A stretch of 35,980 nt of DNA from Microcaldota archaeon (GTDB lineage Archaea; Micrarchaeota; Micrarchaeia; Micrarchaeales; CABMGC01). The notes beneath the pieces were generated by a model. The model was not told the origin of the DNA, ran no database searches, and saw only the letters and a list, made by a program, of their open reading frames with translations. The stretch spans positions 1 through 35,980 of the forward strand of contig JAJZLN010000029.1 of NCBI GenBank assembly GCA_021803425.1, given 5' to 3'. Positions 10,151 to 35,980 of the stretch are shown in pieces. Each line of letters starts with the position of its first letter. Within the stretch, counting starts at the first letter, position 1. The translations under genes were made by a program, and so were the position numbers.

Positions 10151-10648
10151 ATGATCAAGAGCAGCAGGCGGCTTATCGCCCTGAAGAGGATATTCGAGTC
10201 ACCTGTTTATGTTGTACTTGCAGTTGCGGCTGCAATAATATTCTATTTCCTGTTTGAATATCTTGTTGCTTCCTCTAATCATGGCTTGCTCATATTCTTC
10301 ATACCTCAATATTACATATATGCGCTAGTGGCTACTTCAGGAATCCTCCTATCGATAAGTGTTTTTACGGTAATGCACTCATTATCAAGGAAGCTTTCTG
10401 GCGCGACAGGCGGCATATTCAGTGTGCTTCTCCCTTCAGTTGGAGGCCTTGTCGTGAGCTGCGGCTGCGAATTTCCAATACTAGCATCTTTACTTCTCTT
10501 CTTCGGAATCAACACTTTTGAGGCGATAGGATTGATATCAATAATCAGCACGTATCAGACCTGGATAATTTCAGGAATGGTTCTAATAAATCTTGCACTT
10601 ATCTATTTCTATGCAGGCTTGGCATATCCGCCCCGAAGAAAGCGCTAA
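10151..10648 (+). CDS. Multi-TM membrane protein with SCGCEFP motif
   Basis: 165 aa, several TM helices, LPSVGGLVVSCGCEFPILASL; 5 bp after the DUF929-like gene. Confidence 0.65.
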   Translation: MIKSSRRLIALKRIFESPVYVVLAVAAAIIFYFLFEYLVASSNHGLLIFFIPQYYIYALVATSGILLSISVFTVMHSLSRKLSGATGGIFSVLLPSVGGLVVSCGCEFPILASLLLFFGINTFEAIGLISIISTYQTWIISGMVLINLALIYFYAGLAYPPRRKR

Positions 10649-10712
10649 TAATTTGACTGGTACTTGTTATGGTATGCAGTATGGCCAGGTTAACAAAAGC
10701 AGCGACACTGCT

Positions 10713-13415
10713 TCAAGCCTTTACCTTTTGCATCATTCTCCTTTCCTTGAGGAACCTGTCCCAATAAGGCTCGCTGGACTTAAGCTGATCCCTCAGTATA
10801 GGGGCGTAAGTCGTCTCTATCAATTTTCCGTCATGCGCCTTCATGTTCATGAACAGGTATCCATTCAGCTTGTCTTCAGAAAGGAATGGAATATGCAAGG
10901 TCTTGTTGTGTGGGTTTGTAGCCGTATTCTGCATCGTAGGCCCTTCAGCAACTACTGAATTCTTTGTTGTAACCTCTTTGGATTCATGCCAATGGCCTCC
11001 AACTACCGCCTGCGCCCCGCTTCTCTGCGCTTCAAGGAAGGCCTCTATGCCATGCTCCTTTGCAGGATGCGAATGCCTCAGGTTAAATTCAATTCCATTG
11101 AACCAGAACGTTTCTGCGGCTATGTCGCTTCCGCTTCCGGTCTTTACATGCGTTTTCCAGTCATCAGGGAGCTTTCCGGACTTCTCAAACCCTTCAAGCA
11201 GCATGTCTATATGCGCTTTCAGCATTGTTGCTTCGTCGTGCTGCCCATCCCTGTGGGTCTTATTGTAGTGGTTGCCTGATATTATGGCTACATATCCCCC
11301 TCTTGAAACAACATCCAATACTAATTCCTTAACTGATTCTACGAATACTGCAGCCTGGGAATCTATGTTGGAAAGCACGTTTTTATCCTGCCTTTCGTAC
11401 CTTTCAAGCTTGGCGCGCATTATCTCATCTTCATTCAGACCTTTATTCTTAAGCCAGCTCACATATTCTGTCATTATTTCCGTATTTGCCTCCGGTCTTT
11501 CCACATACTTGAAGTTGCCGAGGTTTCCTTCTATATTATCTCCGTCAAGCACAAGCATATCGACCTTCTTGTTAAGAGCGTCTTTTGCTGCTGCTCTAAG
11601 CATTTCAATGCTTCCATAATTACCTACATGGGCATCTGTGATTACTGCAACTTTTATATCCTCTGCAGCTTCGGGCATTTTGTCTTTGGCATTAGGCACC
11701 AACGATAAAATAAGCTTTTCATCTGCATATGCAAGGTCTCCGTCCTTTATCTCCGAAGGCCTTTTGCTGGATAATATGGCCCTCTCAAGTTCAGGGTCGT
11801 GGCCAGCCACTTTCTCATGCGTGCCTTCGCCAAGTGCCTTGACAAGCTGTTCAGCAGCGCCTGCCTGCTCTATATCATCTTTTATTCTTTCTTCCTTTAG
11901 CAGGGGCACCCCCAAGGTCTTGTGTGCAACGGATCCGTCTCCATGCACTTGCACCACGCTGGCACTCTGGTCAAGTAGCATTTTGGATCCGTCAGATTCA
12001 TCGGTTTTTACTCTGTTAAGGTAGGTTTTCGTGCTCTCTGCAACGGAGAAGAATGGGCCTTTTGACAAGGCAGCAACAACAGTGCTTGACTGGTTTTCCC
12101 AGGCTTCCATCGAAAAGGAGCTATATCCGTTTCTAGATCCGATAAGCACATTCAGCGGCGTGTTGTCTATCTTTCTTTTCTCCTCCTCCATTCCTTTAAA
12201 TGTCACGTATGCCTCTCTTACAAATGCCGTATTGCTGCTCTTCTTGTATTTACTTGAAGATATTCCGAGACCATCCGTGATTATCACGTTAAATTCAAAC
12301 CCGTTGATTTTATTGCGGTAAATTGACAGCTTCTCTTCCTGGATTGTTACCTTTCTCGTCCTTCCTATTGCGTTCTTTAGTATCGTCCTATAATTATTTT
12401 CGGCTAATCGGTCAACAATGTCATTCACATCTTTAGGTAGGGGTATGTGCCCCGTAAACATGTGTATGCCTGCGCTATTCACCATCAATTCCTTAGACGC
12501 AGTTCTGGAAACCGCTTCATTATACCTTTTTGTCAAGGCTTTTTGCCTGTTTCCTATCGCCTTTATATCCGATCTTAGCTTTTCATATTCCTCGGTCTCT
12601 TCAGGGGTCCTTTGTTCGGCCTTCTTCGCTTCGTTAAGCTTACGTGTAACCTCTGTCATCTGACTGTTTGTCTCATTAAGCATCTCATCTATCTTCTCCT
12701 TGTCAAGTTCCGTGTGTATCTGCATATTCAATAATTCAAGCAGCGACTTCCTTTCCTGCAGCTCATCCAGCTCCTCTGAATTGATCTTAAAGTTAAGCTT
12801 CGCACGTTCCAGCTCCTTCTTAAGGCTCTCCCTTTCATGGTCGTTTGCAGCTTCCTCTATCCTTCTTGGTATGTTGGTTTTGGATTCTGAAAGGCTCTTC
12901 ATCTGCTCCTTGCGTGCATCTATCTCTTTTTTTATTGCTTCTATTTTCGGTTCTATTATGTTTTCAAATCTCTTCTGCTTTATCTTTTTGACCGCATCCA
13001 TGTACATCCTTGATAGGTCAAGCTTGAGCGTCTCAAGGTTCTTCTCATCGGCCTTGCCCATAACGTATATAAATGCCGCATTTTCAGGAAGCGCAGATGA
13101 AAGCCTTTCAATATGCGGCTTTATGACCGCAGCAGCGCCTTCCAGGTCCTGAACTCCGCTCCTTATCACCCTTAACTTGTCCTTGTTCCTTTCCCCTCCC
13201 CTATTTATCGGCATTTCCGGAAGCACGCCCCCGTTCACTACAAAGACATCGGGCTTCTCATTCTCCTTGAGGTTCTTTATATAGTGCGCAAGTCCTATCA
13301 GTCCGTCTTCATTCATGTATGTCTTTGCGCCGTTGATCTCAGACACTACAAATATGTTAAAAGACTTGCTTTCAATGCCACCTTCCATAAATTCCCACTG
13401 ATAATTAAATACCAT
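10713..13415 (-). CDS. Large calcineurin-like metallophosphoesterase with coiled-coil insertion
   Basis: C-terminal half: VAVITDAHVGN, LVLDGDNIEGN, AIISGNHYNKTHRDG, VVGGHWHES. N-terminal half has a long Lys/Glu-rich coiled coil. Confidence 0.8.
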   Translation of the reverse strand: MVFNYQWEFMEGGIESKSFNIFVVSEINGAKTYMNEDGLIGLAHYIKNLKENEKPDVFVVNGGVLPEMPINRGGERNKDKLRVIRSGVQDLEGAAAVIKPHIERLSSALPENAAFIYVMGKADEKNLETLKLDLSRMYMDAVKKIKQKRFENIIEPKIEAIKKEIDARKEQMKSLSESKTNIPRRIEEAANDHERESLKKELERAKLNFKINSEELDELQERKSLLELLNMQIHTELDKEKIDEMLNETNSQMTEVTRKLNEAKKAEQRTPEETEEYEKLRSDIKAIGNRQKALTKRYNEAVSRTASKELMVNSAGIHMFTGHIPLPKDVNDIVDRLAENNYRTILKNAIGRTRKVTIQEEKLSIYRNKINGFEFNVIITDGLGISSSKYKKSSNTAFVREAYVTFKGMEEEKRKIDNTPLNVLIGSRNGYSSFSMEAWENQSSTVVAALSKGPFFSVAESTKTYLNRVKTDESDGSKMLLDQSASVVQVHGDGSVAHKTLGVPLLKEERIKDDIEQAGAAEQLVKALGEGTHEKVAGHDPELERAILSSKRPSEIKDGDLAYADEKLILSLVPNAKDKMPEAAEDIKVAVITDAHVGNYGSIEMLRAAAKDALNKKVDMLVLDGDNIEGNLGNFKYVERPEANTEIMTEYVSWLKNKGLNEDEIMRAKLERYERQDKNVLSNIDSQAAVFVESVKELVLDVVSRGGYVAIISGNHYNKTHRDGQHDEATMLKAHIDMLLEGFEKSGKLPDDWKTHVKTGSGSDIAAETFWFNGIEFNLRHSHPAKEHGIEAFLEAQRSGAQAVVGGHWHESKEVTTKNSVVAEGPTMQNTATNPHNKTLHIPFLSEDKLNGYLFMNMKAHDGKLIETTYAPILRDQLKSSEPYWDRFLKERRMMQKVKA

Positions 13416-17570: not shown

Positions 17571-19034
17571 ATGGGGATACTTGATAGCATACTTTCGCTG
17601 ATACCTCACGTCAAGAAGCCCAGCACTCCGCTTTCGTTCAAGGAGAAGCTCAAGTGGACCGCAGTCGTAATGGCCATATACTTCGGATTCTTCAGCACTC
17701 CTGCGTTTGGGGTAAGCAGGGCCGCACTCAGCCAGCCTGTATTGCAGCTGATAAACATAATATTTGCCGCAAGGACCGGCACCCTCATAACAGTTGGGAT
17801 AGGCCCGATAGTGCTGTCAAGCATAGTGCTGCAGCTCATACAGGGCACAGGCCTGCTCAAGATAGATCTTTCAGATCCTCAGCAGAAAGGCAAGTTCCAG
17901 GGAATACAAAAACTTTCTGCAATAGTAATTGCAGTAGTGGAGTCAATAATATTTACGTCCACAGGGTACGTCCCGCTTGCAAGCAGCAGCTACTTCGGAA
18001 TAGTCGTGCTGCAGCTTGCAGTAAGCGCAATAATAGTGATATTCCTCGACGAGATCATGGTTAAGTACGGGCTCACATCGGGCATAAATCTGTTCATTGC
18101 CGGTGGGGTGGCATACGCAGTGATAGCCGGAACTGTCAATATATTAATCCCAGGGGCGCAGATTGCGCTTGCAAACGGCGGCGCTTCCGCAATACCAAAC
18201 GCGTTCCTTGCCTTCGGCCCACTCATATTCGCCATACTGGTGATGCTGATAAGCATATACGCATATGACATGAAGGTCGAGCTGCCGCTTGCGTTCAGCC
18301 AGCTGAGGGGAGTGGGGGGCAGGCTTCCAATACCCTTCCTTTACGTAAGCGTGCTTCCGGTCATACTCGCAACTTCGCTCATAGTCTCGCTGAGCGTATG
18401 GTTCTCATTCCTTGCGCATGTAAATACTGGGACGTTTGCGAGCGTAGCACACTTCATAGCTCTCTATCAGATACAGCAGTCTGCAACCGGCGCGACAAGC
18501 ACGATACTCGTCGGTGGCGTCTTGTATCTAATATCCCCGAACTTTCCGCTTCCATACCAGTCGCCATATGGCATAGGCGGATACGGTCCATACGTTTCAT
18601 ACCTTCTTTCAAGCAGCAGCCAGTTCTACATGCCGTGGGGCGGCATAATCTATGTGCCTGAATGGATCCACATAATAACATACACATTATTCCTTGTCAT
18701 TCTCTGCATAATATTCGGGAAATTCTGGGTAGAGATGACCGGGCAGAGCCCCAAGAGCGTCTCCGAGCAGCTTCAGGGAATCGGATGGCAGATACCTGGG
18801 TTCAGGAGGGATCCCCGGATAATAGAGAGCGTTCTGAACAAGTACATACCCACAATAACTGTTCTTGGCAGCATATTCGTTGCGCTTCTGGCCTCCTTGG
18901 CCACGCTAACCGGGGCCATAGGCTCCGGGATGGGCATACTTCTTACTGTTGGCATAATGTACATGCTCTATCAGCAGATCGAGAGGGAGCACATGCTCGA
19001 AGGATATTCCTCAATAAACAATTTGCTTTCATAG
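17571..19034 (+). CDS. secY: Preprotein translocase subunit SecY
   Basis: SFKEKLKWTAVVMAIYFGFFSTPAFGV, multi-TM, SVLPVILATSLIVS, cytoplasmic loops, GMGILLTVGIMYMLYQQIEREHM C-terminus. Confidence 0.92.
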   Translation: MGILDSILSLIPHVKKPSTPLSFKEKLKWTAVVMAIYFGFFSTPAFGVSRAALSQPVLQLINIIFAARTGTLITVGIGPIVLSSIVLQLIQGTGLLKIDLSDPQQKGKFQGIQKLSAIVIAVVESIIFTSTGYVPLASSSYFGIVVLQLAVSAIIVIFLDEIMVKYGLTSGINLFIAGGVAYAVIAGTVNILIPGAQIALANGGASAIPNAFLAFGPLIFAILVMLISIYAYDMKVELPLAFSQLRGVGGRLPIPFLYVSVLPVILATSLIVSLSVWFSFLAHVNTGTFASVAHFIALYQIQQSATGATSTILVGGVLYLISPNFPLPYQSPYGIGGYGPYVSYLLSSSSQFYMPWGGIIYVPEWIHIITYTLFLVILCIIFGKFWVEMTGQSPKSVSEQLQGIGWQIPGFRRDPRIIESVLNKYIPTITVLGSIFVALLASLATLTGAIGSGMGILLTVGIMYMLYQQIEREHMLEGYSSINNLLS

Positions 19035-19042
19035 GTGATTAA

Positions 19043-19465
19043 ATGATGTCATTGAAATATGCTGACAAAAAATACGCAATGCCTGCAGAGGCCAGGGCAA
19101 TTCAGGATTCTGGCCTGAAAACTGCTTCTAAGCGCGCCATGCGCATCGATGCTGAAAAAGAATCAAAAAAGGAAAACTGGAAATGGTCGCTGATCAAGGA
19201 TATTTTCACTCCTGAAAAGAAGGACTTTTACCACATCGCACAGAGCATGTCGTTGATTGCCAGCACATTAAGCATGTTCGCGCTCGCAGCAGAGTTCCTG
19301 GCATCAAAAATAGTGCCTCCGTTTGCCGGATTCCTTGACAGCAATCCCATATATGTCGCTTCCGCAGTAGCGGCATTGCTGGTGTCTTCGGCCTCCCTCT
19401 TCATTTCTGAACACATCATAAAGAAGAAAGAGAAAAAAGAGAGCGGACAAGCAAACTCAAAATAG
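19043..19465 (+). CDS. Hypothetical membrane protein, 140 aa
   Basis: Two C-terminal TM segments; 9 bp after secY. Confidence 0.6.
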   Translation: MMSLKYADKKYAMPAEARAIQDSGLKTASKRAMRIDAEKESKKENWKWSLIKDIFTPEKKDFYHIAQSMSLIASTLSMFALAAEFLASKIVPPFAGFLDSNPIYVASAVAALLVSSASLFISEHIIKKKEKKESGQANSK

Positions 19466-22237: not shown

Positions 22238-25200
22238 ATGAAGTATACAATATTAGTAGCATTAGCTTTTGCACACATATTTTTCCTTGCCCATGCCTCA
22301 GCAATGAATAATACCACTATAAGCAATGCCACTTCAGCTTCTGCCACAAACTCACTGCCTAAAAACCAGTCCCTAACCAATAACATTAATACTACCAGCC
22401 AAAATATGCCATACCAGCTCACATTTCCAGCTGAAATAAGCAGTGAAGCATCCCAAACACTCCACAGTAAAGCATCTTCAATTCTATCAAACAGAATAAG
22501 TTCTAGAAAGAGGAATGCAGCATTACCGAATATTTTAGAAGTTACCGAATCAATAAGCAACTTCACCAGCATAAACAAACTGCCAGTTAATCTGCAGAAT
22601 ATTTTTAATGGAACAAATAAGATATATACTGAAAATGTGCTTATTGCTTATGCGGCCTTAAACTCGAGCTTTCAAGCTCAAAATTCATATAACAACACAA
22701 ACTTCACATACGTCAATATATACTCTTCATTATATGGAAATAATGCAACCTCTTTTGCATCATACCTGCCTCCTTTTATTCGGTCACCGGCATTTTCTTC
22801 TCCTAATTCATCAGTTAGAAGCATATATGTCAAGTTAAACAAAGGGGAAGGAGATGCAGTAACGAAAATAATATTTCACGGCAATACTACTGAATATGGA
22901 TTCAATAAGCCCATATACCTCTCATTTAACATAAGCAGCCAAATAAATGATTCGAATATAATAAGTGCAGAATATAATTTTTCTGTAAGTAAGCAATGGA
23001 TTTCAAATTTAAATCTTAGCCCATACCAGATCTCATTATATAAATACGAAAATGGCAAATGGGAGCAAATGCCTACCTTGCTTACTGGATCTAATGGCAC
23101 ATACTTCACATATGTAGGAATCTCAAACTCTTTCTCTACGTATATAGTGTCATTCAATCAAAATGCCAGTGTAGGGGATTTGAATCCTGAATCAGTGACT
23201 TTGCACCTTGGATATAAATTATATTTCTGCGAAGCTGGTGCAAATTATACCTTTTCAACATCAGGATCGCCATTTTCATGGATACAGGATGTTGGCTCCC
23301 CTTCCGGGTCTCCACCAAGCGGAGAAAACGCAAGCATAGGACATCAGTCAAGCAACGTCTGCTCAGCATATACCACTAATTCTACGTTTCCTGGTCTTGC
23401 TGTTGCAGGAATAGGCGTAAACCAGACAAATTATATTCTTTTTAAAAATTCATCAAGCAGCTCATCTTCCTCTAACTTGAAGTATGAAGTTGCTAAGAAC
23501 AATTCTTTTGTATTGATAATGACCGCTTCAGGGTATTATGGATTAACCGGAGTGTCAATCCCAAAAGGCTGCAATGTAGACGAATTTGTAAACAATACCG
23601 ACACATTCGAATCGGCTTATATAGCCACATGCCAAGGGCAGCAGGAAGGGACATATTATGTAAATGATTCTCTTTCCTTTTTAGGGTCTTCTACCCTTGC
23701 TGCGTATGTTTTTCTTCCATACACGCTTACGCTTGATGATAATATACCTACTGGTGAGATAGAAACGAATGGCGCAACGTATCCATCGGGAAGCACAATA
23801 CAGGTAATAGGAACAAATTCAGTTTATGCAATTGCGCCGGCAAATTTTGTATTTGTAAATTGGACGACAAGCAATCCTGTTAATCTATCATTATCCAATT
23901 ATACTAGCAATCCCGCAATCCTTACAGTAAATGGGAATGGGACTCTTACTGCAAATTTCAAAGTACAAACCGAATTTACAGAATCCGGACTTCCAAGCGG
24001 ATCAAGATGGGATGTAATATATGACAATATATTTCTGAGCAGTACATCCCCAACAATCAAGTTTTTTACCAATCCTGGAAACTACACATTTTCAATTCCT
24101 GTCCAAAACATCGCTGGCGCAGCCTATGAGCCATCTCCTTCTTCAGGCTATTTAGTTTCAGGAAATTCAACCCAGATAAATTTCACCCCATTGGTAGCTA
24201 ACATATTCGTCCCCAGCAACTCTGTTGTAGATGTAGGGCAGTATGAAACACTTGTAGCAAATGCATCTGGCGGAGTCCTGCCTTATATTTACAATATATC
24301 TATCTCAAATTCGACATTTCCTTCAATTATAATAAACTCATTTGTATCCCCTAAGACAGTGTTGTCTTTATTTTCAGCAACATTTCAGACAACAATATCA
24401 AATTTAGATAATTCTCCGGACTCAGCAAATGTGGTTGTATCTGATGCATTTCCAGCTAAAGCATATTCTCAATACCGCAGATTTTATGTATATCCTGCCC
24501 TAGCTGCGCCTAGAATAACATCTCCAACTCTACCTATAACTCTTGATATGGGCCAATCTCTTAGTATATCTGCATCTGCTCCTTCAGGCGGAACAGGAAA
24601 TTTCCAATACATATGGTCTGTTGTTAATGGCACTTACTGTCCAGGGTTTATTCAGCAATCCAATACGCTTTCATTTATTTATTCTCCAACATCCCCAACA
24701 AGCTTATGTGAATTTGAGATTACTGCAAAGGATATTGGAACGTCTACGCCCGTCTATGTAACTTCAAATCCTACATCAAAAATATCTGTAGATATATACC
24801 CTGAAACCACTCCTAAAGGAGTAAAATTTTATGTGCCTATAAACATCACAAATTCGCAACCAGCCCCAACCCCTCAACAATTTCAGCAGTTCATTCAATT
24901 AAACCTTCTCAATTACTCAGAATATGCCTCCTATAACGGTAATACTGCAAATTTTGAATTCTTTTATGCAAACGGAACAATTATTCCTTCATGGATAGAA
25001 TCAAACAGCTCGAATATTGTTTCAATCTGGCTCAAGCTTTTAACCAGCATTCCCGCAGACTCAAAGACGACGATATATCTGGGTTTCTATAACAAGAGCT
25101 CAAATATTCTGTCAAATTCCGGCTTATTTGGAATAGGCGAAGCGCCGCAGCTAAGCTTACAATACGGAAAATATGATGATGGACAGAGTGTATTTCTGAG

Positions 25201-26443
25201 TTACTTCAATGGTGATACATCAATCAATAATTTTTCTGTATCAAGTGGGTACAACATCACACAAGTCGTTGGAGTCCAGATGCCAAACGGCAACAATGGC
25301 AATGTATTATATATAACTGGCTATAATAGGCACGACTCCGAAAGATACATATCTTTCGTTTATAATTTTGGATATAAAATTCAGCCAAGTATAATTGAAT
25401 CATCTTCTGAGCTGCATGGAAATCTTGGCACAGCGCAGGGAATAGCAGCGGTTCTCAATTCAACATCAATATCCTCAGCAAGCGGCATAGGCGTCACAAT
25501 GGGATATGGTCAAACATACTTCTCACAGGAACATGAAAATTTTGGATCAGTGTCAGTTGATATCAATCCGCAAGGGTCTTCAGTATCGTCTTGGATATAC
25601 GGCAGCGTATTCTTCTCAGGCGCATCTTCATCTTCGTGGAGCGGTTATATATCGCCGCAATTATACTACACAAATAATGGGTATTCTGGCAATGTATCTT
25701 TTCAACCTATAAAATCTGGAGCATACCTTTATATGAGCAGCTTGGGTGCGTCAGGCCAGAAGAAATATCCTTATAATCTCTATATAAATTGGGAAAGGTC
25801 AAGAGCAATCCCACCAAATGGCGTAATGCCTTACGTCTCTTTCTCAAACATATTCGGTCTAAGCAGATTCATTGAAAGCGGGCTGCCACCAAACTCTATA
25901 TGGAATGTAACTTATGATAATATCATTAATTATTCAAATACAGATTCGATAGCATTTTCAACATTTCCTGGAAAATATCCTTTTTCAATACCAAATCAGA
26001 CTGTAAATGGCATAACGTATTCGCCATCTCCTGAAATAGGCTATCTTATTGCTGGAAATATTACAAACATAATTTTTTCCAAGGTAATAGCCTGCACAAT
26101 ATCATTAAATACATCTTCATTTTCATTTACTGGCATTTATCCTAACACCAGCTTGAACACAGACTTTGCCATAAAAGACACCAATGATGGGGAATTCAAG
26201 GCCCTCATATTATTATATGGAGCAAATTGGTTGGGGTCTATGCAATTTGGAGTAAGCAATACATCATGGTCGAGCTCAATAAATACCCCATTTATAAATT
26301 CAAACAAGCTAAGCGCAAGCCTGACTTCAACAAATCTGTATGCATACCCTAACGGCACAAACGTATATTTCGGAATAAATATACCTGGCGGAATTCCAAA
26401 AGGAAACTATACACAAAACATATACATCGAAAATAGCTGTTAG
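22238..26443 (+). CDS. Giant secreted multidomain surface protein (PGF-pre-PGF-like, ESGLP repeats, DUF2341-like, C-terminal Cys-bounded domain)
   Basis: 1401 aa, signal peptide, many N-x-S/T sites; AEYNFSVSKQWISNLNLSPYQISLYKYENGKWEQMPT; two FxESGLPxxSxWxVxYDN modules; KGVKFYVPINITNSQ...FEFFYANGTIIPSWIESNSSNIVSIWLKL. Confidence 0.82.
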   Translation: MKYTILVALAFAHIFFLAHASAMNNTTISNATSASATNSLPKNQSLTNNINTTSQNMPYQLTFPAEISSEASQTLHSKASSILSNRISSRKRNAALPNILEVTESISNFTSINKLPVNLQNIFNGTNKIYTENVLIAYAALNSSFQAQNSYNNTNFTYVNIYSSLYGNNATSFASYLPPFIRSPAFSSPNSSVRSIYVKLNKGEGDAVTKIIFHGNTTEYGFNKPIYLSFNISSQINDSNIISAEYNFSVSKQWISNLNLSPYQISLYKYENGKWEQMPTLLTGSNGTYFTYVGISNSFSTYIVSFNQNASVGDLNPESVTLHLGYKLYFCEAGANYTFSTSGSPFSWIQDVGSPSGSPPSGENASIGHQSSNVCSAYTTNSTFPGLAVAGIGVNQTNYILFKNSSSSSSSSNLKYEVAKNNSFVLIMTASGYYGLTGVSIPKGCNVDEFVNNTDTFESAYIATCQGQQEGTYYVNDSLSFLGSSTLAAYVFLPYTLTLDDNIPTGEIETNGATYPSGSTIQVIGTNSVYAIAPANFVFVNWTTSNPVNLSLSNYTSNPAILTVNGNGTLTANFKVQTEFTESGLPSGSRWDVIYDNIFLSSTSPTIKFFTNPGNYTFSIPVQNIAGAAYEPSPSSGYLVSGNSTQINFTPLVANIFVPSNSVVDVGQYETLVANASGGVLPYIYNISISNSTFPSIIINSFVSPKTVLSLFSATFQTTISNLDNSPDSANVVVSDAFPAKAYSQYRRFYVYPALAAPRITSPTLPITLDMGQSLSISASAPSGGTGNFQYIWSVVNGTYCPGFIQQSNTLSFIYSPTSPTSLCEFEITAKDIGTSTPVYVTSNPTSKISVDIYPETTPKGVKFYVPINITNSQPAPTPQQFQQFIQLNLLNYSEYASYNGNTANFEFFYANGTIIPSWIESNSSNIVSIWLKLLTSIPADSKTTIYLGFYNKSSNILSNSGLFGIGEAPQLSLQYGKYDDGQSVFLSYFNGDTSINNFSVSSGYNITQVVGVQMPNGNNGNVLYITGYNRHDSERYISFVYNFGYKIQPSIIESSSELHGNLGTAQGIAAVLNSTSISSASGIGVTMGYGQTYFSQEHENFGSVSVDINPQGSSVSSWIYGSVFFSGASSSSWSGYISPQLYYTNNGYSGNVSFQPIKSGAYLYMSSLGASGQKKYPYNLYINWERSRAIPPNGVMPYVSFSNIFGLSRFIESGLPPNSIWNVTYDNIINYSNTDSIAFSTFPGKYPFSIPNQTVNGITYSPSPEIGYLIAGNITNIIFSKVIACTISLNTSSFSFTGIYPNTSLNTDFAIKDTNDGEFKALILLYGANWLGSMQFGVSNTSWSSSINTPFINSNKLSASLTSTNLYAYPNGTNVYFGINIPGGIPKGNYTQNIYIENSC
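26093..26440 (+). repeat. Cys-bounded surface domain, copy C
   Basis: CTISLNTSSFSFTGIYPNTS...LLYGANW...FGVSNTSW...VYFGINIPGGIPKGNYTQNIYIENSC. Confidence 0.7.
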
Positions 26444-27740: not shown

Positions 27741-30155
27741 ATGGAAAGCATAGAGTTAGACGGCGTAATAGTTGATATAGACTACATAAATATCGATGGA
27801 AATAGTACCATACGCATAATGTTGAAGTCGAACAGCTCAACTTACAAGCTTATTGATCCGGATTTCCATCCATATTTTTACCTTGTTCCGTTCGACAGCA
27901 GCATAGATCCTGATTCAATAGGCAACATGGATATAAGGAGCAATGGCGAACGCATTTTGATAAGGTCCGTAAGGTGGTTTGAAACAAGCCTTAGGGGAAG
28001 GAAGACAAAGGCATTAAAGATAGAAACCAGCAGCACGCGCGCAATCCCGGATCTCAGCGAGAAGCTTGTGGAGTTCGGCGACAGGTACGAATACGACATC
28101 CTTTTCTGGAAGAGATATCTGATAGACAAGAACATATCGCCTCTTAGCGGAGTACATGTATCCGCGATGAAGGATAAGGAAGATCTTATAATAAAGGATA
28201 TCAAAAAATCGGAATCAGCCAGCCAGGAAACCCTGACCCATCTTTCATTCGATATAGAAACCTATAACCCCACAATAGCTCCGCGCCCGGAAAAAGACCC
28301 CTGCATAATGATAAGCTACGCCACAAACGGCAGGGAAGGCGTACTTACCACCAAGGAAATAGACCGCAGCTTCGTAACCCTATACAAGGATGAAAGATCA
28401 ATGATAGAAGGGTTCATGGAAATAATAAAAGATATAGATCCAGACATAATAGACGGATACAATTCATCAAATTTCGACATACCTTACCTCATGGCAAGAT
28501 CAAAAAAGCTGGGACTGCACTTCGACATAACGAGATACGGGGAGGAGCCCAGGGAGGAGAACCATGGCCTGATAAAAGCAATCAAGATTCCGGGAAGGAT
28601 TAACCTTGACGTATACAATGTAACGAGGTTTGTTTCCATAGTCGGCGCCAGCGAGAAGCTGTTAAAGATAAACCGCTTTACCCTCGGCGACGTGTATGCC
28701 GCGATAACCGGCGATACAAAGAGGACCGTTGAAAAGAAAAACATATGGCAGATGTGGGACGGCAAGAAGGAAGACCTTGAAAACCTCGCAGATTACTCGC
28801 TCAGCGACTCAAAGGCGCTTGCGGAGCTTTACAAGTTCTTCATACCTCTTGAAGTAGAGGTATCAAGGGTGACCGGTACCACGCTTGCTGAAGCTGCAGT
28901 ATCCACCACCGGGCAGCTTGTGGAGTATTTCCTGATGAAATACGCATCAATAAACAAGGAACTGATACAGAACAAGCCTTCAGAAGCCGAGATAAAGGCG
29001 CGCACCGACAATCCCATAGAGGGCGCATATGTAATGACTCCGGAAGCCGGAATATACGATAACATAGTGGTGTTTGACTTCAGGGGCCTCTATCCGTCAA
29101 TAATAATAGCAAACAACATAGATCCGTCGTCAGTATGCACGGACTGCACCGAATATTACCAATCCCCTACGGGCACAAGGTTCAGGAAGGGGCCGCAAGG
29201 CATAATACCGAAAGCGCTAGAGCTGCTCATAGCAGAGAGGTCAGAGGTCAAGAAGGCATACAAGAAGGATCCTGACAACAAGTTCCTTGCGGCAAGATCC
29301 CAGGCGCTGAAGATAATCGCAAACTCATTTTACGGATATCTGGGGTACGCGCGCTCAAGGTGGTATTCAAGGGACTGCGCCGCAAGCGTCACTGCATATG
29401 GCAGGGCGGCTGTTCAGCAGACCATGGAGAAAGCCGAGAATTCGGGATTCAAGGTGCTTTATGCCGATACAGATTCAAATTTTCTTTTAATGGGAAAGAA
29501 ATCAAAGGACGATTCGCTGAAGTTCCTTAATGAAGTTAACAAGGAGCTTCCTGGCGCAATGGAGCTTGAGCTTGAAGACTTCTACGTGCGTGGGGTCTTT
29601 GTCGGCAAAAAAGGGAAAACGGGGTCAGGCGCGAAGAAGAAGTACGCCCTGCTTTCAGAATCTGGAAGGATAAAGATAAAAGGATTCGAGCTTGTAAGGA
29701 GGGACTGGTCAAACATTGCAAGGGAGACGCAGAAGAGAGTGCTCGAGGCCATCCTCAAGGAGGGAAGCAAGGAGAAGGCTATAGAGATAGTGAAGGAAGT
29801 CGTGAAGAACCTGAAGGACGGAAAAGTCGAGATGAAGGATCTTGTGATATACACCCAGCTGAGGAAGGCGATTGATAGATATGACAACACCTCCCCCGAG
29901 CTTGCAGCTGCAAAGAAAGCGATAGCCCAGAACGTGAAGAGCAGGGAAGAGATAGAGGGCGCCACCATCGGTTATATAATAACAAAGGAAGGAAATTCAA
30001 TATCTGAGAAAGCAGAGATAGACGAAACTGCCAAGACCTATGACCCTGACTACTACATCAACCACCAGGTGCTTCCAGCCACTCTTAAGATACTCAAGGA
30101 GCTTGGGTTCAGTGAGGAGGAACTGAAAGGCAGCGGATCCCAGAGGAGACTATGA
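27741..30155 (+). CDS. polB: Family-B DNA polymerase
   Basis: Exo I FDIETYNP, DGYNSSNFDIPYL, YSLSDSKA; motif A DFRGLYPSII, KIIANSFYGYLGY, motif C YADTDS. Confidence 0.93.
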   Translation: MESIELDGVIVDIDYINIDGNSTIRIMLKSNSSTYKLIDPDFHPYFYLVPFDSSIDPDSIGNMDIRSNGERILIRSVRWFETSLRGRKTKALKIETSSTRAIPDLSEKLVEFGDRYEYDILFWKRYLIDKNISPLSGVHVSAMKDKEDLIIKDIKKSESASQETLTHLSFDIETYNPTIAPRPEKDPCIMISYATNGREGVLTTKEIDRSFVTLYKDERSMIEGFMEIIKDIDPDIIDGYNSSNFDIPYLMARSKKLGLHFDITRYGEEPREENHGLIKAIKIPGRINLDVYNVTRFVSIVGASEKLLKINRFTLGDVYAAITGDTKRTVEKKNIWQMWDGKKEDLENLADYSLSDSKALAELYKFFIPLEVEVSRVTGTTLAEAAVSTTGQLVEYFLMKYASINKELIQNKPSEAEIKARTDNPIEGAYVMTPEAGIYDNIVVFDFRGLYPSIIIANNIDPSSVCTDCTEYYQSPTGTRFRKGPQGIIPKALELLIAERSEVKKAYKKDPDNKFLAARSQALKIIANSFYGYLGYARSRWYSRDCAASVTAYGRAAVQQTMEKAENSGFKVLYADTDSNFLLMGKKSKDDSLKFLNEVNKELPGAMELELEDFYVRGVFVGKKGKTGSGAKKKYALLSESGRIKIKGFELVRRDWSNIARETQKRVLEAILKEGSKEKAIEIVKEVVKNLKDGKVEMKDLVIYTQLRKAIDRYDNTSPELAAAKKAIAQNVKSREEIEGATIGYIITKEGNSISEKAEIDETAKTYDPDYYINHQVLPATLKILKELGFSEEELKGSGSQRRL

Positions 30156-31057
30156 TGGAAGAATACGATTATGATATAAACGAATTGAAGGCTGCAGGAA
30201 AGGTGTCTGCACTTGCAATGGGGCATGCGCGCACTCTTGCAAAGCCTGGAGCGAAGCTTGAAGATGTGGCGCAAGGCATTGAAAAATTCATCAAGGACAG
30301 CGGGTGCGATATGGCATTCCCTGTAAATCTCTCAACAGACTCCGAAGCCGCCCATTATACTCCCGAACACGGCGATGCAAGAGTAATAGGGGAAAATGAC
30401 GTGATAAAGGTGGACCTTGGCGCAAGGAGGAATACAAACCTTACGGACTGCGCATTCACGCTGTCATTAAACAACAAATATTCAAAGCTTGTCGAGGCGA
30501 GCGAAGAGGCTCTTGAAAACGCGCTGAGCATGGTAAAGTCCGGAAGGTCCGTCTGCGATATAGGCGGAGAGATAGAGAAGACTGCAAGAAAGCATGGATT
30601 CAATCCTATAAAGAACCTCGGCGGCCATGGAATATCTGAAGAGGACCTGCATGCAGGAAAATTCATACCAAACTTCAATAATGGTGATTCAACCCAACTA
30701 AAGGAGGGAGAGCTGATAGCAATAGAGCCGTTCGTGACAACGGGCGTAGGCCAGGTAACAGACGGGAGCACGACGCAGATATATCAGATAATCTCCACCA
30801 GGATGCCAAGATCACAGGAAGCAAGGCAGGTTCTTGAATTCTGCACTGGCAATTATTCAACCTATCCTTTTGCGCTGAGATGGCTCATATCTGGAATGAA
30901 GATCAGCGAATTCATGATAAGAAAGTCTATCTCAGAGCTTATTACAATAGGCGATATAGAGGCATTCCCGGTGCTTGTTGAGAAGAGCAAAGGCCTCGTA
31001 GCGCAGTCCGAGAAGACAGTGATCGTTGGGTCGGAAGGGTGCACGGTAATAACGTAA
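30152..31057 (+). CDS. map: Methionine aminopeptidase, type II
   Basis: VKVDLGARRNTNLTDCAFT, NLGGHGISE, IAIEPFVTTGVGQV; ATGA overlap with polB. Confidence 0.9.
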   Translation: MMEEYDYDINELKAAGKVSALAMGHARTLAKPGAKLEDVAQGIEKFIKDSGCDMAFPVNLSTDSEAAHYTPEHGDARVIGENDVIKVDLGARRNTNLTDCAFTLSLNNKYSKLVEASEEALENALSMVKSGRSVCDIGGEIEKTARKHGFNPIKNLGGHGISEEDLHAGKFIPNFNNGDSTQLKEGELIAIEPFVTTGVGQVTDGSTTQIYQIISTRMPRSQEARQVLEFCTGNYSTYPFALRWLISGMKISEFMIRKSISELITIGDIEAFPVLVEKSKGLVAQSEKTVIVGSEGCTVIT

Positions 31058-31250: not shown

Positions 31251-32612
31251 ATGATGATCATGGCCAATAATGCAGGTAGTCTCGGGGAAAAAGCAAAGCA
31301 ACTGAATGCGCTAGAGGATCAAGTGCGGGCGCAGACTGAAGGATTTTTCTACAGCACGCCATTTATTTCTCTTGAAGTGCAGACGCCATCCGGAATAAAG
31401 GACTTGTCCTTGGATTTCAGGGACATGATGCTGATTTCTGCAATGTCCGAGGGAAATGTCCTTGTAAGCGGCAGAACAGGAGGAGGAAAGACCTCAGTAG
31501 CAAGGGCGATTCAGCGCGGCATCTTTGGAGAATCATGCGCATTTTTCCAGATGGATGCAAAATTCGATGAAAACAGGTTCAGGGATATCGCCTTCGGCAC
31601 CATCAAGGAGGGAGGGAACCTCAGCGACGCAAGCACTCCTGGAAAGGCGCTTACTGCCCCGGCACTCATAATAGATGAATACAACAGGGCTCCGCCAGTC
31701 GTAACAAACATCATACAAGGCTGGCTTACCAACGGCTCAGTAACATTGGACGGGGAGAGGACCATATTTCCTGGAGTCGTTATTCCCGGGAGTGGCCATT
31801 ACCAATGGAAAGTTGCCACTGTAAACGAGGGGATTCAGTATATCGGCACTTCTGGGATAGACAAGGCAAGCAGAAACAGATTTGCAATAGAGATGCCTTT
31901 CGACATGTTTCCCCCTACGGATGTAGACAGGAGAAATCTCATCGCGCATGGAAAATTCAAGGAAGATAGCGTTCCAGAGAGTGTGACCGACATGAGCAGT
32001 GCCATGTTCAAACTGATAAGGACCACAAAGGAAGTACCCGTCGACCCTCTTGTCACGGAATTTCTGCTATACGTCCAAAAGGGAGACCTCTGCTATAATT
32101 CGCCTACTGGCACAAAGCTCGGGTTCGATGAATTTACATTGGAGATATGCAAGGGCTGCCATGCAGCCGCTCAGAACAAGGAGATATGTGGAATGACATT
32201 CGCCCCTCCTGAAAAGTCCATTCCAGAAGTGCTTTCCCTTGCAAGGGCGTTTGCAATATACAGGAATTACAGGATTCCAGAATCCGAGCTTACAGTATCG
32301 CTTAGTGACATGTCTGCAGTAATGCCGTTTGTAATGTTCCATAAAATAGATATTGCTGATGGATGGGCGCAGAAATACGGTGGAGGAAGCACATGGTATG
32401 CAACGCAGATGGTTATAAAAGAGATGCAGAGCGCATGGATTCAAGGCACAAGAGCCCTTGCCCCTGTAATAGAGGCAGAGTATGGGGAAAAACAGCTATC
32501 TCCCAGCATGCAGGCTTCAAAAGAAGAAGTGCTTCTTTCAAATCCCAAAGTGGGTCAGGTAAGCGATATGATTCAGCTCTACAGGAAAAGACCAGAGAGA
32601 CTGCATACATAA
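31251..32612 (+). CDS. MoxR-type AAA+ ATPase
   Basis: VLVSGRTGGGKTSVARAI Walker A, ALIIDEYNRAPPVVTNIIQGWL Walker B/sensor region, DKASRNRFAIEMPFDMFPP. Confidence 0.82.
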   Translation: MMIMANNAGSLGEKAKQLNALEDQVRAQTEGFFYSTPFISLEVQTPSGIKDLSLDFRDMMLISAMSEGNVLVSGRTGGGKTSVARAIQRGIFGESCAFFQMDAKFDENRFRDIAFGTIKEGGNLSDASTPGKALTAPALIIDEYNRAPPVVTNIIQGWLTNGSVTLDGERTIFPGVVIPGSGHYQWKVATVNEGIQYIGTSGIDKASRNRFAIEMPFDMFPPTDVDRRNLIAHGKFKEDSVPESVTDMSSAMFKLIRTTKEVPVDPLVTEFLLYVQKGDLCYNSPTGTKLGFDEFTLEICKGCHAAAQNKEICGMTFAPPEKSIPEVLSLARAFAIYRNYRIPESELTVSLSDMSAVMPFVMFHKIDIADGWAQKYGGGSTWYATQMVIKEMQSAWIQGTRALAPVIEAEYGEKQLSPSMQASKEEVLLSNPKVGQVSDMIQLYRKRPERLHT

Positions 32613-32636
32613 AGCCCGGATTTCAGATGTGATTCC

Positions 32637-33299
32637 ATGAACAAACAAACAAAGCCGAATCAAATGCCAAAGGAAACCTGGGAGACAGTGAAGCGCGGCT
32701 TAGACATAAAGATAAATACCAAACAAATTGAGAGGGACGCAAAAGCCGCGCAGAGAGTCGCTGCACGAAAAGAAGAAACACAAATCAGACTGCCAATGAT
32801 AATCGAACAAAACATAGATTATCAAGGAACAAAGGACATTGCAAAAAAGCACAACGGAGCCCTAATCAAGCTCGAAAGACTGGTACAGCTACTCAACGAT
32901 CCTGATTTCGTTAAGTCCATAGAAGACACAAAGTCATACAAAAGAGATAGATATACATTTTTTTGGATTGACACAGTAGGTACCAATCTAAATGGCTACT
33001 ACAGAATGAATCCGCAAGGAAAGACATTAGACGAGATGTTCACATTCATATCAAGATTATTTGATAGTGAGGTCAAAAAAGTCCCAAGCAATGAAATACT
33101 CTATTTCAAAAAAACAGATCTGCCTCTGGCTGTGGAAGTCTTTAGCAAGGTCAGTTTTTTGCATGCACGACTGGAAGTAAGTGGTGATGGCTTTTGGCCT
33201 TACTCTACTGCTCCGCTTGTGGTTGTTGAGCAAGCCTCAGCCAAGCCAGTCACTGTATGGCAGCGGATCAGCAAACCCTTTCGACACCTTAAAAAATGA
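32637..33299 (+). CDS. Unknown protein, copy 1 of a duplicated MoxR/VWA-associated family
   Basis: Intact ORF; N-terminal ~138 aa about 80% identical by eye to the ORF starting at 35289/35298. Confidence 0.75.
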   Translation: MNKQTKPNQMPKETWETVKRGLDIKINTKQIERDAKAAQRVAARKEETQIRLPMIIEQNIDYQGTKDIAKKHNGALIKLERLVQLLNDPDFVKSIEDTKSYKRDRYTFFWIDTVGTNLNGYYRMNPQGKTLDEMFTFISRLFDSEVKKVPSNEILYFKKTDLPLAVEVFSKVSFLHARLEVSGDGFWPYSTAPLVVVEQASAKPVTVWQRISKPFRHLKK

Positions 33300-33303
33300 T
33301 TAA

Positions 33304-35292
33304 ATGGAAGATGAACAGATTGATGTAAAACAGATTCTAAGGTCTCAGCTAGCTGCGAAAGGCTGGGATATTATTTACAAACTGGATGTCGAAAGAAAGG
33401 ATACTCCGAATCTTTTTGAGGCAAGCATGGAATCTTATTCTTGGCAACTGAATGTAACTTTAGACACTGCTTTTGAGGAAAAGCTCGGTAAAATAGCAGA
33501 AAAATCAAAGCTTAACATTCAAACTCCGGTTCAAAAGGCGCTGCGCAGCATTGTAGACCATGAAATGGGGCACTGGGAGCTATGTCCCAGCGATATAGTC
33601 TATCTTGAAAGCATGCTCAATTCAGTAAGCAAGGGCCTGTCGAACGGAGGCATGTCAGAACAGGAGGTAAAGCAGTTCTCCCCCTATGTGACGAACATGT
33701 TTTCCGATGCAGTAATCAACTGCAGCCATATGCGTGAGAAGGATTTCAGCGAGGGTTACGGGCTGTTGCAGGCATCAAGAGCATATACTTCACCATCCGC
33801 TTTGGAGAATGGCAAACCTCATTTTGAAGATTATTTCGGCATGTTCATAGACATTCAGATGAAGCTTGCAAGAGACAAAGGCATTAGAAAAATAGGAGAA
33901 AGATACGTAAATAATTACTCTGCAATAGCAAAGATGAGCGAACAGCTTCTTGGAACATTGATAGGAAAGGATCTTGCCAAAAAAGCGTTTTCTAATTCAC
34001 TTAGAAAAGAAGACATGGACGATATTGTATATGTCCTTAAGGACAAGGATTCATGGAACATGAAATCAAAGCGCTTCGCACAGATAATTGCACCTTACCT
34101 CAAAAACCATATCGATGACATGCAGAAAAACCAACATCTTATGCCATCGCTTTCGGGCATTTGCGTAAGCGATTCTGAGGATTCACAAGAGACATCTGAA
34201 AATGACAGGACGATTATAAAACAGGGATTAGACAGGCTTGAAGCCGAAGCCAAAGAAGAATCCGAAAAAACTGGAGGCGAAGAAGGCGCCAAAGCACGCA
34301 AAAAAGGCAAGGACGAAGATGCGTGGGAAAGGGTCGGCCAAAAGATAGCGGGATACGGGGGCACTGATATGAAATATGCCGCAAGACATGAAGTTTATGA
34401 TGAACTGTATAGGCGCACAGCGGGGCAGATTGTCCTCAACTTCCTGGACAAGGGGGAAGAAGCCCCAAGCCTTACCCTTTTCCATATGGCCAGGAGAAGA
34501 TTAGAAGATGGAGAACAGCTTGACAATACTGTTGCATGGGAAAGAACCATTTTTGTAAATGGTGAGCCGTTGCTGTTCAAGAAAGAGATGCCTTTTGATA
34601 TAGACTCGCCAGGGCCATCAAGCAAGGGAAGCTATGAGGACATATTATTCATAGTGGATGTTTCAGGAAGCATGGGATGGCAGGACATTCCGCTCGACGG
34701 CTCAAAGTACGATATGGCTATAAGGACAGTATATTCAGTAATGAATTACCTCGAGAAGAGCGGGAAGGCTCCTTTCCTGAACTACGGTCTCATGCAGTTC
34801 AGTTACGATACCGACTGGTCTGGGTGGAAGAACTACCGGCAGTCTGGAGCTTTAACAAAAAGACTGTTCACAGGCTTCCAAGGAGGCGGCACACTGCTGG
34901 ACCCGGACAAGGTCAATGCTGCTGATTCGAGGCCGAGCAAACACTTCCTTACAATAATGATAAGCGACGGCGAGATAGCCAATTCAGAAGAGGCATTCAA
35001 TGCGTGTTCAAGGGTTGCTGTAGACCATAAGAATGACTTTGTGCTGTTTCAGATAGAGTCCGAAAGCGATTTCGGAGATAAGATGAGGGGCATCGGAGTG
35101 CCGGTCATATCTATAAACCAGCCAGAAGACCTTATAGGAATAACACTGGACATTGTAAGGTCAAAATATGCACCAATATTCAGGCAAGGCGCAAGCCCAG
35201 CTAGAAATACTAAAAAAGAGGATCTGCTGGATCAGGCAAGGGACAGGGACATCACTCAGCCCAAACCAAGCGCTAAAAAGATACACCCATGA
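33304..35292 (+). CDS. HEMGH putative metallopeptidase domain fused to VWA (MIDAS) domain protein
   Basis: SIVDHEMGHWELCPSD near N-terminus (HEMGH 33559-33573); ILFIVDVSGSMGWQD MIDAS motif and IMISDGEI in the C-terminal part. Confidence 0.8.
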   Translation: MEDEQIDVKQILRSQLAAKGWDIIYKLDVERKDTPNLFEASMESYSWQLNVTLDTAFEEKLGKIAEKSKLNIQTPVQKALRSIVDHEMGHWELCPSDIVYLESMLNSVSKGLSNGGMSEQEVKQFSPYVTNMFSDAVINCSHMREKDFSEGYGLLQASRAYTSPSALENGKPHFEDYFGMFIDIQMKLARDKGIRKIGERYVNNYSAIAKMSEQLLGTLIGKDLAKKAFSNSLRKEDMDDIVYVLKDKDSWNMKSKRFAQIIAPYLKNHIDDMQKNQHLMPSLSGICVSDSEDSQETSENDRTIIKQGLDRLEAEAKEESEKTGGEEGAKARKKGKDEDAWERVGQKIAGYGGTDMKYAARHEVYDELYRRTAGQIVLNFLDKGEEAPSLTLFHMARRRLEDGEQLDNTVAWERTIFVNGEPLLFKKEMPFDIDSPGPSSKGSYEDILFIVDVSGSMGWQDIPLDGSKYDMAIRTVYSVMNYLEKSGKAPFLNYGLMQFSYDTDWSGWKNYRQSGALTKRLFTGFQGGGTLLDPDKVNAADSRPSKHFLTIMISDGEIANSEEAFNACSRVAVDHKNDFVLFQIESESDFGDKMRGIGVPVISINQPEDLIGITLDIVRSKYAPIFRQGASPARNTKKEDLLDQARDRDITQPKPSAKKIHP

Positions 35293-35980
35293 TTATCATG
35301 CAAAACAAGCAAATAAACCCAAATCAAATGTCAAAGGAAACGTGGGAGGCAGTGAAGCGCGGCTTAGGCATAGTGATAAATCAGGATGAAGTCGAGAGGG
35401 ATGCAAAAGCTGCGCAGAGAGTCGCTGCACGAAAAGAAGAAACACAAATCAGACTGCCAATGATAATTGAACAAGAAGCAGATTATGAAGAATCAAAGAA
35501 CATTGCAAAAAAGCACAACGGAGCCCTAATCAAACTCGAAAGATTGCCACAGCTACTCAACGATCCTGATTTCGTTGAGTCCATAGAAAGCACAGAATCA
35601 TACAAAAGGGATGGATATATTCGGTTTTGGATTGACACAGTGGGCACCAATCTAGACGGCCACTACAGAATGAATCCGCAAGGAAAGACATTAGACGAGA
35701 TGTTCACATTCATATCAGATAGTTTCGACATAAATGTCGAAAAAATTCCACACAATGAAAGAGCCCATTTCCGTAAAAGAAATCAGCCTCTGTCCGTGAA
35801 TGTCAGGAGGTCAGACTTCGAATACTGGCGTCTGATCGTGGGCGATCTCAGCCCTTCCTTTGTCGCTCCTGTGGTGGTTGTTGAGCAAGCCTCAGTCCAG
35901 CCAGTCGCCATACGGCAGCGGATCATCAAATTTCCCTCCAATACCTTACCACCCCCTCAAGCCTTAAAATATAGATATCC
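35289..35980 (+). CDS. Unknown protein, copy 2 of the duplicated MoxR/VWA-associated family (3' end beyond window)
   Basis: Open frame from ATG 35289 (ATGA overlap with VWA gene) or ATG 35298 to the window end: MQNKQINPNQMSKETWEAVKRGLGIVINQDEVERDAKAAQRVAARKEETQIRLPMIIEQ...; no stop, hence missing from ORF track. Confidence 0.8.
   Translation, partial: MIIMQNKQINPNQMSKETWEAVKRGLGIVINQDEVERDAKAAQRVAARKEETQIRLPMIIEQEADYEESKNIAKKHNGALIKLERLPQLLNDPDFVESIESTESYKRDGYIRFWIDTVGTNLDGHYRMNPQGKTLDEMFTFISDSFDINVEKIPHNERAHFRKRNQPLSVNVRRSDFEYWRLIVGDLSPSFVAPVVVVEQASVQPVAIRQRIIKFPSNTLPPPQALKYRY

Follow-up and report, generated by a model that had tools for sequence, protein, structure and literature searches.

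The closest described systems are the bacterial MoxR-vWA conflict systems. In the model proposed for these, the vWA domain binds a peptide and MoxR drives its release, with lectin domains varied by diversity-generating retroelements (DGRs) as putative sensors (PMC7159879 and PMC10907252). PMC10907252 places the reverse transcriptases (RTs) of DPANN archaea in clade 5F, and its passages on them that were consulted report no MoxR link. Here we describe a locus in Micrarchaeota that encodes a MoxR-type AAA+ ATPase, a VWA protein with an N-terminal HExxH motif and several small proteins, denoted X, in which a constant N-terminal tag is joined to a changing body. DGRs are abundant in DPANN archaea. 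Full-text searches of open-licence papers turned up no account of a system of this kind from DPANN. The window analysed is the entire 35,980-nucleotide contig JAJZLN010000029.1 (denoted C14), one of 33 contigs of the Microcaldota archaeon assembly GCA_021803425.1 (0.88 Mb, 93% complete); other genomes and contigs are denoted by G and C numbers.

Results

The MoxR-X-VWA-X gene cluster

Four genes occupy the end of the window, all on the + strand, as are all features of the window given below. The MoxR-clade AAA+ ATPase (453 aa, 31251..32612) is followed after 24 bp by X1 (220 aa, 32637..33299), and 4 bp further by the HExxH-VWA protein (662 aa, 33304..35292). The last gene, X2 (35298..35980), is an open reading frame (ORF) of at least 227 aa that is cut by the contig end; it starts at the ATG at 35298 or at an alternative start at 35289, which would overlap the VWA gene by 4 bp. 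A first-pass annotation of the same DNA had listed this gene set and its close spacing, and all four genes are indeed there.

The same annotation had recognised a MoxR-type AAA+ protein and a VWA protein with a HEMGH motif, and conservation of the key residues bears this out. In the AAA+ protein, Walker A (G74-T81), Walker B (D142 E143), the sensor N192 and R210 are invariant in 12 of 12 homologues, ten of which match Pfam AAA_5 (dynein-related). Its alignment profile matches the solved structure 2r44, annotated as a MoxR ATPase, across positions 51-268. In the VWA protein, the HEMGH motif (residues 86-90, 33559..33573) marks a putative zincin site, and its HExxH residues H86, E87 and H90 are invariant in 13 homologues together with C94, P95, N131 and D135. 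The metal ion-dependent adhesion site (MIDAS) is intact: D452, S454, S456, T503 and D555 are invariant in the same 13 homologues, the DxSGS stretch D452-S456 lying at 34657..34671. The match to VWA PF00092 (E=7e-4) is weaker than the curated cut-off.

A constant tag on changing bodies

The first-pass annotation had described the third component as a duplicated protein of about 220 aa and had advised looking beyond the contig end for more copies. X1 and X2 are 71% identical, and contig C28 of the same genome opens with two more X genes, X3 (truncated by the contig start) and then X4. The description of a simple duplication is imprecise, since the N-terminal 46 or so residues are constant and the rest varies. 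The tags of X1 (46 aa, 32637..32774), X2 (47 aa, 35298..35438) and X4 are 78-89% identical, X2 and X4 sharing 83% of their amino acids; they span about 46 N-terminal residues, are helix-like and end in AKAAQRVAARKEE. The body of X4 has no BLAST similarity to those of X1-X3 (E 0.84-0.9), which are 57-71% identical to untagged bodies of the same-genus genome G136. The ratio of nonsynonymous to synonymous substitution rates (dN/dS) is 0.17 for the X2/X4 tag, versus 0.58-1.14 for the bodies of X1-X3 (codons 56-150). X is thus a composite, one tag on two unrelated bodies, and not a fixed third component.

Relatives of the X bodies occur in 22 of 295 genomes, and just one of these, that of the window itself, has the VWA protein. 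Outside C14 and C28, the matches begin at position 29 or later of the profile, mostly at 38 or later, so that the tag is wholly or mostly missing, and those copies that were read are tagless. Both body types belong to a dispersed Micrarchaeota family that is untagged in 21 genomes without VWA, and for this reason X, taken as one unit, is no dedicated subunit of MoxR/VWA. A profile search of the whole genome with the tag matched X genes only, with no match in MoxR or VWA; the N-terminal tag is the part of X that is specific to the MoxR/VWA locus. The first-pass annotation had held that finding X widely without MoxR/VWA would speak against a joint system: this is the case for the body and not for the tag.

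The window's genome also carries solitary, untagged X-body genes at C27:8219-8704 and C26:40117-40497, on contigs with no MoxR/VWA of this family. Pfam, NCBIfam, PADLOC and PHROGs gave no library match of weight for X, and the AlphaFold model of X1 (predicted local distance difference test score, pLDDT, 36) was too poor for a fold search.

Relation of the bodies to diversity-generating retroelements

The untagged body genes of G136 are near-identical save near the 3' end, where they differ at codons that are mostly NNC or NGG. A template repeat lies downstream of body genes in G008, G159, G152, G187, G047 and at one G136 locus. In the first three of these genomes, the X-body gene is followed by the template repeat and a DGR-like RT sequence, and the RTs carry the DGR-like motifs PIGNLTSQ and YVDD. 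Across seven template/target pairs, two of them messy, mismatches fell at 115 of 184 template A, 29 of 160 T, 26 of 217 C and 23 of 174 G; in G008, G159 and G152 nearly all core mismatches are at template A. The closest relatives of the X4 body are the families of G136:C80, of G152:C17 (including the diversified G152 genes) and of G047. Together, these data demonstrate that the X bodies are relatives of DGR-hypermutated proteins and that in several genomes these relatives are targeted by DGRs.

An adjacent RT, a template repeat and adenine-specific variation, the marks of a DGR target, are found together in G008, G159 and G152 and not at the X genes of the window. Alignment with the G136 copies delimits a 3' hypervariable segment in X1 (33132..33236) and in X2 (35790..35894). 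In X1 this segment would be the positional equivalent of the variable repeat of the DGR targets among its relatives.

The DGR RT of many Micrarchaeota (G008, G084, G132, G145, G154, G136 and others) is encoded in two ORFs with the same split, at query residues ~148/158, and is in a single frame in G180, G029, G106 and others; the split may reflect a conserved split gene, a frameshift or something else. On G103:C2, a VWA gene of this family (10467-12389) lies ~6 kb from a DGR RT (18346-19364), whose target is cut by the contig end.

Tagged arrays in other Micrarchaeota

VWA homologues are present in 21 of 301 Micrarchaeota genomes, nearly always with an adjoining MoxR gene and often with one gene in between. 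Among the carriers, G226 and G224 share the family of the window's genome, and G158 shares its order. At about eight MoxR/VWA loci the neighbours are arrays of small proteins with a common N-terminus, or single such proteins (ORFs outside the window's genome were predicted with a simple greedy script). As the number of paralogous genes is 0-2 in 11 control stretches versus 6-10 at the larger array loci, these local arrays are not background. The MoxR/VWA locus of G158 has nine tandem copies of ~184-192 aa. G122 and G217 carry the tag LFDxxRRxxIRxAIxxG on ankyrin bodies, and in G122 it is also found on an unrelated body of ~260 aa; similar tags with ankyrin bodies occur in G118 and G038, and in G046 two tagged genes adjoin a second VWA fragment.

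In the richest genome, G180 (~1.1 Mb), one or other of two tags is found on at least 88 proteins, encoded on 15 contigs; 25 of these proteins are on its MoxR/VWA contig C26. The two tags are DPILxKYxEEGILGxKPGMVK and LIDPKKKxxVLQRIKxGKxPFCAxKPxPE (including an FFD variant), and 88 of 90 tag matches start within residues 1-75. The tagged bodies are of ankyrin type (by a pattern scan), transmembrane type (by a hydropathy scan) or a DGR-type body denoted LAND, which is joined to either tag. One DPIL-tagged LAND gene is a DGR target adjoining its RT on the MoxR/VWA array contig, and a LAND gene with the other of the two tags adjoins the VWA gene. Furthermore, one MoxR of the G180 arrays scores at the Pfam cut-off for bpMoxR, which is the MoxR component in a known vWA ternary conflict system.

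The LID tag of G180 and the LFD tag of G122 and G217 are homologous across families (hhalign E 2e-5); the X tag of the window has no detectable relation to these tags. In one of the tag alignments, 2 of the 13 strings begin with a single padding residue that lies outside the motif. Comparison by hhalign of the X body with the bodies of the G158 array, of G180 LAND and of G122 gave weak signals (E 0.001-0.4, probability at most 18%). Tagged arrays on changing bodies thus recur in other lineages. The first-pass annotation had proposed an AAA+/VWA module with a duplicated variable adaptor, client or conflict partner; its idea of a variable partner gains from the recurrence of the pair with such arrays, and its third component, as noted above, has to be narrowed to the tag.

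Clusters of LFD-tagged genes (99-218 aa) were also seen away from VWA genes, at G122:C18, G122:C3 and G217:C17, with no MoxR/VWA match in the stretches examined. Several paralogous pairs near VWA genes were discounted: those in G045, G046, G126 and G220 are adjacent pairs interpreted as exosome subunits, and the pair at G122:C13 is DnaJ-like.

The chromosomal site

The left flank of the cluster, outside the system, is methionine aminopeptidase (MetAP; 30152..31057), and C28 runs on into rpoA''. In the same-genus genome G116, where the site is without the system, the order is PolB, MetAP, 150 nt, rpoA'', so that C14 and C28 most likely border a single site from its two sides. Judged from this gene order, the system most likely sits between MetAP and rpoA'', the assembly having broken inside the repeated X array. 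A VWA homologue is absent from the 11 other searched genomes of the window's genus, which indicates that the system comes and goes, by gain or loss at one chromosomal site.

Directly downstream of X4 (C28 1317-2222) lies a gene for a LamG-domain protein with a pilin-like N-terminus. We rejected it as a part of the system because its relatives adjoin MetAP in genomes where the system is absent; it is probably a resident gene. Elsewhere in the window, positions 22238-26443 encode a 1401-aa protein without a Pfam match (E <= 1e-5).

Discussion

The interpretation of the first-pass annotation is supported in part: its core idea holds, but, working from raw sequence, it missed the division of X into tag and body, the relation of the bodies to retroelements and the continuation on C28. 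The reading we put forward, the case for which seems to us evenly balanced, is that the locus is an archaeal variant of the MoxR-vWA conflict systems: by way of the tag, a variable set of recognition proteins would dock onto a single AAA+/VWA switch. The MoxR ring and the VWA co-chaperone, with its putative HExxH protease domain, would form a remodelling switch, and the X proteins would be plug-in recognition proteins, each with a constant docking tag at its N-terminus followed by a body that can be exchanged. These bodies would be ligand- or protein-binding modules, related to DGR targets in the window and of ankyrin, membrane-segment or DGR type elsewhere. The tag would bind the VWA/MoxR machine, as is suggested by the VWA MIDAS being a peptide-binding site in related systems; the body would bind a varying target, for example a component of an invader or of a partner cell; and target binding would trigger ATP-driven remodelling or cleavage. 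In this way, new recognition bodies, hypermutated ones included, could be fused to the tag while the machine stays unchanged. The gene set, the tag/body division and its tie to the locus, the DGR targeting of body relatives, the recurrence in other lineages and the gain or loss at the site are observed, whereas docking, proteolysis, triggering and immunity are steps that we infer: a constant, selected N-terminus, variable binding bodies and a co-encoded AAA+/VWA pair make a docking tag the simplest reading. As for the role, conflict (immune-like) is most likely, with recognition of a host or partner cell second.

Several results weigh against this proposal. The structure model of the VWA N-terminal domain (pLDDT 68, predicted template modelling score 0.71) has no PDB fold match at E <= 0.001, which leaves the zincin fold unconfirmed, as is the lectin fold of the X body, which has no sequence match to PDB entries, including solved lectin-fold proteins. 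We found no killing effector, be it a nuclease, a toxin or another type. In the window's genome, at its 93% completeness, neither Pfam RVT_1 nor a DPANN DGR RT query detects an RT; its X genes may thus be frozen relatives of diversified genes, and we rejected direct DGR action in this genome. DGR RTs are found in 3 of the 21 VWA genomes, where 3.0 would be expected, so that co-occurrence is not above chance. Finally, a tagged array is not recognisable at about half of the MoxR/VWA loci, and many of the tagged genes of G180 and G122 are distant from MoxR/VWA.

Four other explanations have to be weighed, of which export or surface display is unlikely but still to be taken seriously, since host cells could just as well be what the bodies recognise. 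Here the tag would be a targeting signal and MoxR/VWA an assembly or export chaperone, and these archaea, which are small and probably symbiotic, would use the tagged surface proteins to attach to or manipulate host cells. Many DGR targets are proteins of the surface or of attachment, and symbionts commonly secrete ankyrin proteins as effectors. In addition, a simple hydropathy scan put 23 of the 88 tagged proteins of G180 in the transmembrane class, and PMC10907252 notes outer-membrane targets for the two cellular DGR cases that have been studied. However, the tags are short and charged, have a helix-like character and Pro/Lys-rich linkers and lack the hydrophobic core of a signal peptide, ankyrin bodies are normally cytosolic, and secretion genes were not recognised at the loci. 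Known MoxR-VWA pairs assemble client complexes (PMC7159879), and X could likewise be a dedicated substrate folded or metal-loaded by MoxR/VWA, as with RavA-ViaA or CoxD-CoxE, its duplication being incidental. We consider this quite improbable, given that the bodies vary between loci and occur untagged in 21 genomes lacking MoxR/VWA, and that no conserved client enzyme was seen.

That the tag is functionless, its 5' likeness left by recent duplication and gene conversion, is very improbable. Tandem repeats do recombine, and X1 and X2 are 87% alike over their first 300 nt, a likeness that extends past the tag; but the low dN/dS of the tag, the spread of the G180 tags over unrelated bodies on 15 contigs and the homologous tags in two families argue against such an artefact. 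Also very improbable is a mobile-element cargo or viral module in place of a cellular system. The patchy distribution of VWA and the empty site in G116 would fit it, but the flanks are housekeeping genes (PolB, MetAP and RNA polymerase), neither an integrase nor terminal repeats were seen at the locus, and three scans of a viral contig collection gave no VWA or X relative; a viral origin was rejected on these empty scans.

Returning to the docking proposal, we are doubtful of its wider form, offered tentatively, in which one AAA+/VWA(-protease) switch serves dozens of docking-tagged, interchangeable receptors in some Micrarchaeota, fed by targeted hypermutation and domain capture. If true, archaea would have a counterpart to an immune receptor repertoire, at least 88 proteins strong in the richest genome. 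More generally, the findings link the family of DPANN DGR proteins to a defined machine via a short tag, carry the logic of MoxR-vWA conflict systems over to archaea whose genomes are very small and point to a simple way of plugging many receptors into one switch; the tag lets all candidate receptors of a genome be listed from sequence.

How the locus compares with known systems can be stated for each in turn. RavA-ViaA, CoxD-CoxE and NorQ-NorD have respiratory, metallo- or decarboxylase clients; no such client is seen here, the neighbours being X genes, PolB, MetAP and RNA polymerase. Metallopeptidase-VWA proteins linked to MoxR are known (DUF2201-type). The VWA protein of the window shares with them an HExxH domain N-terminal to VWA and an adjoining MoxR gene, and differs in that none of its 13 homologues matches Pfam DUF2201. 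With archaeal DGRs (Paul et al. 2015, PMC4372165; the lectin-fold variable protein AvpA, PMC5006420), the X relatives have in common the RT, the template repeat, the 3' variable repeat and adenine-biased mismatches, whereas the window's genome has no detectable RT and sequence comparison of its X bodies gives no match to a solved lectin-fold protein. The DGR-diversified conflict systems of multicellular bacteria (Dore et al. 2024, PMC10907252) likewise couple a DGR-hypervariable putative sensor to MoxR/vWA, but have the variable lectin domain fused to vWA or NTPase, whereas here it is tagged and separate. The MoxR-vWA ternary conflict systems, including the VMAP and beta-propeller types (Kaur et al. 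2020, PMC7159879), share with this locus a MoxR AAA+ protein, a vWA with an intact MIDAS, variable partners, DGR association and small coupling domains on effectors (the principle of the effector-associated domain, EAD). Pfam scans of the window and of the scanned neighbour proteins recognised no VMAP, iSTAND, FtsH or beta-propeller component, and the tag is absent from MoxR and VWA, in contrast to the EAD rule, by which the coupling domain is on the core and on the effectors. The hypervariable partner of the Kaur et al. systems has its counterpart in the exchange of bodies on a constant tag, together with the DGR-targeted tagged protein of G180. What sets the present locus apart is that it is archaeal (Micrarchaeota), that its VWA protein bears an N-terminal HExxH domain, and that its recognition bodies have tagged genes of their own, set in arrays, and are not fused to vWA.

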